Shown here: positions 10,047 to 13,100 of the stretch, piece after piece
How positions within the stretch are numbered: position 1 is the first letter of the stretch
Layout of the letters: each line of letters starts with the position of its first letter
Assembly (NCBI RefSeq): GCF_040958095.1
Contig: NC_091172.1
Span: 22,783,753 to 22,847,752, forward strand
Direction: 5' to 3'
Source of the DNA: Procambarus clarkii
Taxonomy: Eukaryota > Arthropoda > Malacostraca > Decapoda > Cambaridae
Length of the DNA: 64,000 bases
Notes under the pieces: model-generated
What the model saw: the letters and a program-made list of their open reading frames with translations, nothing else
Databases searched by the model: none
Told to the model about the DNA's origin: nothing
Made by a program: the position numbers and the translations under genes

Positions 10047-10178
10047 GAGCCTTCCTGATCCCCTACTGCGTGTGTGCCCTGCTGGGCGGGCTGCCCATGT
10101 TCTTCCTGGAGGTGGGCATCGGCCAGTTTATGAGCGAGGGCGGGATATCTGTCTGGAAGATGTCCCCGCTCTTCCAGG
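10047..10178 (+). CDS. SLC6 exon (first visible): TM2
   Basis: Acceptor CTACAG precedes the split codon G|GA; donor is CAGG|GTGAGT. It encodes [14 protein letters not shown], then [17 protein letters not shown] and VWKMSPLFQ, the TM2 and intracellular-loop-1 signature of SLC6. The last bases, CTTCCAGG plus the donor, are the seed of the 26-bp tandem array that fills the next intron. Reading past the donor hits TGA within 11 codons. Confidence 0.95.
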
Positions 10179-13100
10179 GTGAGTGTCTTGCGTCTACTTC
10201 AGGGTGAGTGTCTGGTGTGTACTTCCAGGGTGAGTGTCTGGTGTGTACTTCCAGGGTAAGTGTCTAGTGTGTACTTCCAGGGTGAGTGTCTGGTGTGTGC
10301 TTCCAGGGTGAGTGTGTGGTGTGTACTTCCAGAGTGAGTGTCTGGTGTGTACTTCCAGGGTAAGTGTCTAGTGTGTACTTCCAGGGTGAGTGTCTGGTGT
10401 CTACTTCCAGGGTAAGTGTGTGGTGTGTACTTCCAGGGTAAGTGTGTGGTGTGTACTTCCAGGGTAAGTGTGTGGTGTGTACTTCCAGGGTGAGTGTCTG
10501 GTGTCTACTTCCAGGGTGAGTGTCTGGTGTGTACTTCCAGGGTAAGTGTGTGGTGTGTACTTCCAGGGTGAGTGTCTGGTGTCTACTTCCAGGGTAAGTG
10601 TGTGGTGTGTACTTCCAGGGTAAGTGTGTGGTGTGTACTTCCAGGGTAAGTGTGTGGTGTGTACTTCCAGGGTGAGTGTCTGGTGTCTACTTCCAGGGTG
10701 AGTGTCTGGTGTGTACTTCCAGGGTAAGTGTGTGGTGTGTACTTCCAGGGTAAGTGTGTGGTGTGTACTTCCAGGGTAAGTGTGTGGTGTGTACTTCCAG
10801 GGTGAGTGTCTGGTGTGTACTTCCAGGGTGAGTGTCTGGTGTCTACTTCCAGGGTAAGTGTGTGGTGTGTACTTCCAGGGTAAGTGTGTGGTGTGTACTT
10901 CCAGGGTAAGTGTGTGGTGTGTACTTCCAGGGTGAGTGTCTGGTGTGTACTTCCAGGGTGAGTGTCTGGTGTGTACTTCCAGGGTGAGTGTCTGGTGTCT
11001 ACTTCCAGGGTAAGTGTGTGGTGTGTACTTCCAGGGTAAGTGTGTGGTGTGTACTTCCATGGTGAGTGTGTGGTGTGTACTTCCAGGGTAAGTGTGTGGT
11101 GTGTACTTCCAGGGTGAGTGTCTGGTGTCTACTTCCAGGGTGAGTGTCTGGTGTGTACTTCCAGGGTAAGTGTCTAGTGTGTACTTCCATGGTGAGTGTG
11201 TGGTGTGTACTTCCAGGGTGAGTGTCTAGTGTGTACTTCCAGGGTGAGTGTCTAGTGTGTACTTCCAGGGTGAGTGTCTAGTGTGTACTTCCAGGGTGAG
11301 TGTGTGGTGTGTACTTCCATGGTGAGTGTGTGGTGTGTACTTCCAGGGTGAGTGTCTGGTGTGTACTTCCAGGGTGAGTGTCTGGTGTGTACTTCCAGGG
11401 TGAGTGTCTGGTGTGTACTTCCAGGGTGAGTGTCTGGTGTGTACTTCCAGGGTGAGTGTCTGGTGTGTACTTCCAGGGTGAGTGTCTGGTGTGTACTTCC
11501 AGGGTGAGTGTCTGGTGTCTACTTCCAGAGTGAGTGTCTGGTGTGTACTTCCAGGGTAAGTGTGTGGTGTGTACTTCCAGGGTGAGTGTCTGGTGTCTAC
11601 TTCCAGGGTAAGTGTGTGGTGTGTACTTCCAGGGTAAGTGTGTGGTGTGTACTTCCAGGGTAAGTGTGTGGTGTGTACTTCCAGGGTGAGTGTCTGGTGT
11701 CTACTTCCAGGGTGAGTGTCTGGTGTGTACTTCCAGGGTAAGTGTCTAGTGTGTACTTCCATGGTGAGTGTGTGGTGTGTACTTCCAGGGTGAGTGTCTA
11801 GTGTGTACTTCCAGGGTGAGTGTCTAGTGTGTACTTCCAGGGTGAGTGTCTAGTGTGTACTTCCAGGGTGAGTGTGTGGTGTGTACTTCCATGGTGAGTG
11901 TGTGGTGTGTACTTCCAGGGTGAGTGTCTGGTGTGTACTTCCAGGGTGAGTGTCTGGTGTGTACTTCCAGGGTGAGTGTCTGGTGTGTACTTCCAGGGTG
12001 AGTGTCTGGTGTGTACTTCCAGGGTGAGTGTCTGGTGTCTACTTCCAGGGTGAGTGTCTAGTGTGTACTTCAGGGTGAGTGTGTGGCGTGTACTTCAGGG
12101 TGAATGTGTGGTGTGTCTCCCAATTAACGAGGTAACCTCAGGTATCTCCCAGGTGACAAGGTATCGTCCACACAGGTATCGGCTTTGCGGCCATCGTGGT
12201 GTGTAACTGGCTCAACGTGTACTACATCGTCATCATCGCCTGGGCCCTCTACTACTTCATCTTCTCCTTCCAGGCCGAGCTTCCATGGACCACCTGTGAC
12301 AACTGGTGAGTCTTCCTAGCTGCATACCTATATACAGTCCTTTGAACACCGCATGGCTGGTGTTGTTGATCTTATAGTGTAAGTTTTCTATGTTTTCTGT
12401 TTTCTTAGTATCAGTAACTATTTCTAAAGTAACTTAGTGTAAAGTAATTATTTCCTTGGTATAGTAACTGAGAAATGAAGTTACTAAAATTCACGGTAAA
12501 GAAACTCTTAGTAATTATTGATTCAATTTCTCAATTTTTCTTTATTATGCACTCCATACCCATCCCATGGGCGGTGGTGTAAAGGATTACAGAGGCACAT
12601 AATCAGTTCAGGAACTGAACCCTCTAGTTACAAATACAGATACAAATATTTATTCAGGTAAAGTACATACATACAAGGTGAAATACAAAAGTTGATGGAT
12701 TTATAGATAGAGCTAGTACATACAATGCCTAAAGCCACTATTACGCAAAGCGTTTCGGGCAGGAAAAACACTATGACTAAAACTTAATACTAAGTGAGAT
12801 TAAAGTATAAATTGTGTTGAGAAAAAAAAAGAAAAAATGAAAGGGGGGGGGGGAACATGGCAGAAAAACAGCAAAAATACAATTTGGTCAACAAACAGCA
12901 TTGTTTAAAATCGTAGACATGGGTTGACATTTAGGGGTGAGGTAGGTTACATTGAGTTAATTAGGTGGTACTTAGTTTTTATCTTAAACTGGTTGAGAGA
13001 GGTACAGCCTTTGACATGATTGGGAAGGTCATTCCATATTCGAGGTCCCTTGATTTGTAAAGCATTTCTAGTTTGACTAAGTCGTACTCTTGGAATATCA

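Follow-up and report, generated by a model that had tools for sequence, protein, structure and literature searches.

A minisatellite of 75 copies of a 26-bp unit, lying on the plus strand of the window (by which we mean the whole 64,000-nucleotide stretch of the Procambarus clarkii genome analyzed here), probably grew by slippage out of the splice donor of an SLC6 transporter exon, and the first of its donors is probably still used, via exon definition. Tandem repeats of this type, spanning exon–intron boundaries, were reportedly named mirages in the amphioxus gene Adh3. The observations on which we draw are the anatomy of the array, the near-equal predicted strength of its donors, the frame outcome of splicing, the intactness of the gene, the age of the intron, and the recurrence of such arrays elsewhere in the genome.

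The array occupies the intron of the SLC6 gene between the exons for TM2 and TM3, both on the plus strand. Exon A (10047..10178; 132 nt; TM2 and the following loop) ends in phase 1 with CTTCCAGG, read as PLFQ-G, and matches positions 37–81 of the SNF profile (PF00209, E 9.2e-15). Exon B (12176..12305; TM3) starts with GTATCGGC, read as G-IGFAAI, and matches positions 83–124 of the same profile (E 2.6e-14). As exon B resumes the profile at 83 where exon A had left it at 81, the A–B junction is real, and the intron between them (10179..12175, plus strand) measures 1997 nt. The ten exons of the gene model were joined by hand, the remaining ones, also on the plus strand, being C (17326..17436), D (18050..18198), E (18441..18559), F (23605..23833; E 2.2e-29 against Pfam SNF for the ORF holding it), G (24017..24138), H (29138..29266), I (33309..33512, the uncertain 3′ end being set for a frame-join to exon J), and J (34561..34731), the last exon found. 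Together they code for 498 residues in a single frame, matching taurine transporter entries with E 2.1e-172 over residues 1–496, and GABA, creatine, and betaine transporters match the product nearly as well. A motif search of positions 1–10046 gave no upstream exon with TM1; the intron preceding exon A is therefore probably at least 10 kb long. The solved structures nearest to the product at the A–B join are those of betaine, taurine, and GABA transporters; the PDB betaine transporter entry 9lnm carries PLFQGIG at the array junction, and the taurine and GABA entries align across it. Hence the tail of exon A is constrained by the protein it encodes and predates the array.

TRF reports the repeat at 10171..12116, with a 26-bp unit, 75.0 copies, 94% matches, and a score of 3248; 1.9 kb of tandem identity at 94% is far beyond chance. 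With the SLC6 junction established as well, the claim of the initial annotation that about 75 copies of a 26-bp unit are built on an exon's own donor is confirmed. Counted by donor, the sites number 75, running from the first, GTGAGT at 10179..10184, to the last, a donor-like GTGAAT at 12100..12105, which is separated from the acceptor of exon B by 76 nt. Spacing from donor to donor is 26 bp in 71 of 74 cases and 25 bp in the other three; 1921 nt lie between the first and the last donor, leaving ~76 nt for the remainder of the intron. The unit is composed of the exon tail CTTCCAGG continued across the junction by GTGAGTGTCTGGTGTGTA, and the first unit opens 8 bp inside coding exon A. The tandem repeat therefore crosses the exon–intron boundary and includes coding bases, and the initial annotation, right in that the unit takes in the last exon bases, misplaced its start by setting it exactly at the donor.

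Nearly all units carry splice signals, with GTRAGT kept in 74 of 75 and CAGGGTRAGT present in 67 of 75; TACTTCCAG occurs 65 times in the array. A unit-by-unit list distinguishes 14 variants, irregular in order and with degenerate edges. All six unit types that occur only once are among the first five or the last three units (1.4e-7 under random placement, the edges having been picked afterwards), and one block of 14 units recurs identically 22 units further on, which indicates recent turnover. This is ordinary minisatellite turnover, with the core homogenized and the edges frozen. The donor of the 26-bp array is the strongest among nine minisatellites scored in the window, and its strength was matched by one out of 300 shuffled units. 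On the minus strand, the antisense of the array (10264..11849) contains stop-free frames of up to 274 codons, a by-product of the repeat.

The array probably originated in a short tandem duplication that took in eight coding bases at the end of the SLC6 exon, together with the 18 intron bases next to them, and that slippage and unequal exchange would have amplified to 75 copies, whereby an ancestral intron of roughly 76 nt would have reached its present 1,997 nt. Since the exon tail encodes the conserved PLFQG motif, the direction is from the exon border to the array, not the reverse. Exon A would then still be closed by the first donor, recognized across the exon. The other 74 donors would mostly be bystanders, with U1 pairing predicted to be similar in most of them; use of any of them would bring a stop, and the mis-spliced RNA would likely be lost by decay.

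What could direct splicing to the first donor was considered at several levels. Its predicted duplex energy with U1, computed with the U1 5′ end sequence, is −12.0 kcal/mol, and 67 of the 75 units, donor 1 included, are predicted at −12.0 or −11.9 kcal/mol, the remaining ones at −11.1 (five units), −8.4 (two), and −6.3 (one). Thus most units do keep CAGG/GTRAGT and form near-equal strong donors, as had been stated from the first inspection. Elsewhere in the gene, nine donors are predicted to be weaker than most array units (−1.9 to −11.0 kcal/mol; in this comparison the exon I donor is at 33517, and the gene model later uses 33513). Given the near-equal energies in the array, donor 1 is not distinguished by U1 strength. 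Nor is it by accessibility, as in a fold of exon A with 12 units the unpaired probability of donor 1 is 0.39 vs. 0.32–0.74 for the next ten donors, so that donor 1 is no more accessible than these. A special RNA structure was rejected, 260 nt of the array folding no better than shuffles (z 0.56).

When each of the 75 donors was spliced in silico to the acceptor before 12176, the frame stayed open for one, the first; due to the TGA in the second unit, splicing from all the later donors hits a stop, which bears out the earlier observation that the first donor alone is compatible with the protein. In a database study of near-equal alternative donors, exon definition went with a preference for the upstream donor and intron definition with a preference for the downstream one (PMC9225289). 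The 132-nt length of exon A and the apparently long intron upstream of it make donor 1 the expected choice. The last donor, 76 nt from the acceptor, poses a risk to this choice, as intron definition favors downstream donors, and the acceptor of exon B, preceded by 10 pyrimidines out of 20 and thus, together with that of exon E, the poorest of the gene, also counts against our explanation. The retention of the array by an intact gene, in turn, points to sufficient use of donor 1. Combining the anatomy with the database rule, we consider it most likely that donor 1 is used via exon definition; strict donor choice at exon A, which the initial annotation had offered as one possible consequence of the array, is plausible.

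To place the array in time, we turned to paralogs. A search of the genome (4.03 Gb, 2,308 contigs) with exons A and B yielded 22 matches, two being the window's own exons and four (two on contig C92, one each on C93 and C88) crossing the junction without a break. Nine other SLC6 places were examined. In seven of these (L040–L046), a donor interrupts the Gly codon at the identical position, and in L040–L044 the acceptor was likewise seen; the donor junction was not found in L047 and L048. A donor position common to seven SLC6 paralogs implies that the intron is old and that the array made no new intron; the intron itself thus appears to be old, and the arrays, new. Six of the seven paralogs have no junction copy within 120 nt. 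The seventh, L045, has an array of its own (231..324 of the reverse complement) with a 19-bp unit and five donors, four of them near-identical, at 242, 261, 280, and 299, followed by one diverged copy. Its unit carries the exon tail of its own gene, ATGCTCAAAG continued by GTCAGTGTC, and, differing in both length and sequence from the unit in the window, suggests that the two arrays are independent. Absence of the array from relatives, which the initial annotation had linked to a purely neutral reading, therefore holds for six of the seven paralogs tested and fails for L045 with its small independent array; an "only recent neutral expansion," as the initial annotation put it, is compatible with the data, yet it is not the whole story.

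Arrays at donors are also found outside the SLC6 family. We examined twenty loci picked for their similarity to the array. A screen of these loci and the window, run both by script and visually, covered 56 minisatellites with five or more copies. Two further arrays start at an exon's donor, that of L010, a match of the array query, and that of L017, not a match; several genes of the genome (at L045, L010, and L017) thus have this feature. The exon at L010 encodes an Ig I-set domain (E 3e-7), and its array of ten 30-bp units (3051..3351, minus strand) is in frame, is stop-free in the units translated, and runs into an N gap; its later units, if used, would add 10 residues each. The exon at L017 encodes 39 LRR-like residues (41 weak PDB matches, nearly all to LRR proteins; E 0.075 against LRR_8, which falls below the cut-off), and the 31-bp unit of its array carries the exon tail, ATAACAAG continued by GTGAGAAC.

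The LRR-like gene at L017 (347..6987, minus strand) contains three arrays, the 31-bp one at the exon donor, a second of 36 copies of 25 bp ending 14 nt before the junction-array exon, and a third of 171 copies of 25 bp (4.3 kb) that extends from base 17 of the intron following another ORF of LRR-like appearance. The 4.3-kb array was rejected as a junction array, as its unit does not contain the donor after this ORF, for which Pfam returned no match. Peptides from seven further ORFs preceding arrays matched no Pfam family at the cut-off, one of them having two weak sub-threshold matches.

At least three junction copies within 120 nt were seen at four out of 19 donors tested (donor A and those of L045, L010, and L017); donor A, L010, and L017 had been examined owing to their arrays, and L045 is the sole array among the 16 other donors. 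One partial junction copy was seen at donor E, and none at 14 of the 19. The donor E copy (12 out of 14 positions, 90 nt downstream) was treated as chance, the similarity stopping there. Copies of the acceptor junction were found at none of the ten acceptors of the window's SLC6 gene. Immediately before exon B, AGGT occurs five times within 12130..12177 (at 12130, 12140, 12151, 12159, and 12174), three times as AGGTATC, the series ending at the real acceptor; this is the sole place in the 64 kb with at least four AGGT per 60 nt. These may possibly be decayed copies of the acceptor junction, the best 12-mer copy of which in the cluster agrees in 9 out of 12 positions only.

Several other explanations of the array were weighed against the one proposed here. 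As 74 of the 75 donors give a premature stop and 67 units are within 0.1 kcal/mol of the U1 energy of donor 1, the array might be functional, with a mixture of donors metering the transporter output, stop-containing RNA being degraded, and array length setting expression; the human IFI6 gene, where repeat units serve as donors, provides a precedent (PMC4526556). We regard such a role as unlikely. In the 72 units spaced at 26 bp, four of nine donor columns vary (−2, −1, +3, and +5), vs. seven of 17 other columns, three of these via a one-base shift, so that no protection of donor positions is visible and selection on them was rejected; further, six of the seven paralogs do without a junction copy, and at the mirages of amphioxus, splicing is reported to stay regular (PMC3087553, PMC3902484).

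A U1 sponge, U1-based protection from early polyadenylation, or a nuclear retention signal could each make use of 75 U1-like sites in 1.9 kb, 74 of which are predicted at −8.4 kcal/mol or better, but all three are very unlikely: no array accompanies the nine donors elsewhere in the gene, even though four of its introns are 4–5 kb long. U1 is so abundant that its titration by one locus, and with it the U1 sequestration suggested initially, is improbable. Recursive or microexon splicing through the units, also suggested at the outset, is hardly credible. Although TACTTCCAG precedes the donor in most units, AGGT is absent from the array, leaving no AG/GT ratchet point; the pyrimidine tract of recursive sites is not found either, as the 19 nt preceding each CAG contain 9–12 pyrimidines and a further AG lies 12–20 nt upstream, a poor acceptor context, and splicing after CAG and then at G/GT would leave an exon of 1 nt. 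The copy number, coming from a single assembly, could be a product of that assembly, but an artefact or inflated count, to which the identical 14-unit block repeated 22 units apart and the N run ending the L010 array might point, is scarcely to be believed in view of the 14 unit variants in irregular order, the degenerate edges, and the similar arrays at other exons.

Growth of the array from the SLC6 donor, with donor 1 still in use, may be set beside several known systems. The minisatellite of IFI6 (G1P3, 6-16) reportedly provides multiple human splice donors (Turri 1995). Two of its downstream units are described as being used and encoding isoforms (PMC4526556). Both cases involve a minisatellite with units acting as donors, in the present array as predicted ones; the difference is that 74 of 75 donors bring a stop here, and the in-frame isoforms of IFI6 have no counterpart (PMC4526556). 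The gain of introns when AGGT segments are duplicated in tandem, as discussed for the Rogers model, ATP2A1, and 24-bp repeats of Schizosaccharomyces (PMC4974935), is similar in that a tandem duplication at a splice motif alters intron structure, and differs in that the array in the window holds no AGGT and created no new intron. The large genomes of crayfish are described as crowded with minisatellites below 100 bp; that work, however, concerns satellite families, and intron, exon, and splice are absent from its main text (PMC13130569).

The closest likeness is to the mirages of amphioxus. In the globin genes BflGb6 and BflGb9, both boundaries can be duplicated and edges escape homogenization, with regular splicing reported as undisturbed (PMC3087553), and PGBD5 and troponin C have been presented as further mirage-like cases (PMC3902484). 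The shared features are a short, junction-spanning unit with coding bases and a splice signal (10–72 bp in Adh3) (PMC3087553) and edge units escaping homogenization, with several genes affected per genome (PMC3087553, PMC3902484). The differences lie in the animal, in scale, 75 units here vs. 6 and 3 in two BflGb6 haplotypes (PMC3087553), and in the paralog with its apparently independent array at the homologous donor. Mirages are also marked by length instability in germline and soma, of which the recurring 14-unit block is no more than suggestive here. Sharing each mirage feature tested, the array is best filed as a very large member of this kind. The open-licence literature searched yielded no report of mirages outside amphioxus, and the novelty here is recurrence, including that at the homologous donor of a paralog.

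Tentatively, and with somewhat less than even confidence, we extend this to the genome as a whole: exon borders may recurrently give birth to minisatellites that lengthen introns, their equal donors being tolerated because exon definition fixes the first one. If this is true, the recurrence in two SLC6 paralogs and in Ig and LRR-like exons would represent a general mode of intron growth, and large-copy mirages, apparently independent, in a minisatellite-rich genome outside amphioxus would show splice junctions to be capable of seeding satellites and introns, of growing out of their own donors. The rules of donor choice would then have a natural test, each junction-array locus being a natural experiment in which the spliceosome picks one donor among dozens of near-equal ones.

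Donor-like arrays at large are a different matter. Three tandem copies of GGTGAGT have 184,963 matches in the genome vs. 88,485 for the backwards control, and three copies of CAGGTAAGT, 3,283 vs. 381; among the approximately 100 matches listed per pattern, a few families dominate. Twelve stretches were examined from the listed matches (L029–L033 and L049–L055), three of which (L031, L050, and L055) lie inside an array, without its 5′ edge. At the 5′ edge of the arrays in the nine stretches reaching it, no exon was seen by eye, and two of the stretches, L029 and L030, resemble the ends of retroelements on visual inspection. Most donor-like arrays in the genome are thus probably not junction arrays; with few families dominating and no exon at nine edges, we rejected the pattern counts as proof of junction origin and make no claim that donor arrays generally derive from exons.

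Among 34 arrays outside the query matches (the match places being set by hand and the loci picked by array similarity), donor strength reached p 0.05 in 11 out of 68 strand tests, with 3.4 expected, and p 0.01 in three, with 0.7 expected. In a small sample of five 8-kb stretches taken at arbitrary positions, of which two consist to about half of N, there was no strong donor array.

Three other donor-rich repeats were seen. The window has a second such minisatellite on the minus strand (53536–53736; ten copies of 20 bp; consensus CCG/GTAAGTAG, predicted −10.9 kcal/mol), near a GTF2H4/Tfb2-like exon (53203–53346, minus strand; Pfam Tfb2, E 3.9e-13), and no exon border was seen at the minisatellite itself. 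L015 has a 5-kb array on the minus strand (3282..8370) of 268 19-bp units, with AGGGTGAGTGT in the consensus (predicted −12.0 kcal/mol) and no upstream exon seen. Finally, the 43-bp family GGTGAGTGTTTATGACTCACATGTTGCTTACAGTAACGTGGT, the unit of which has both a donor-like and an acceptor-like motif, is abundant, occurring in L033 and at many places on contig C1.
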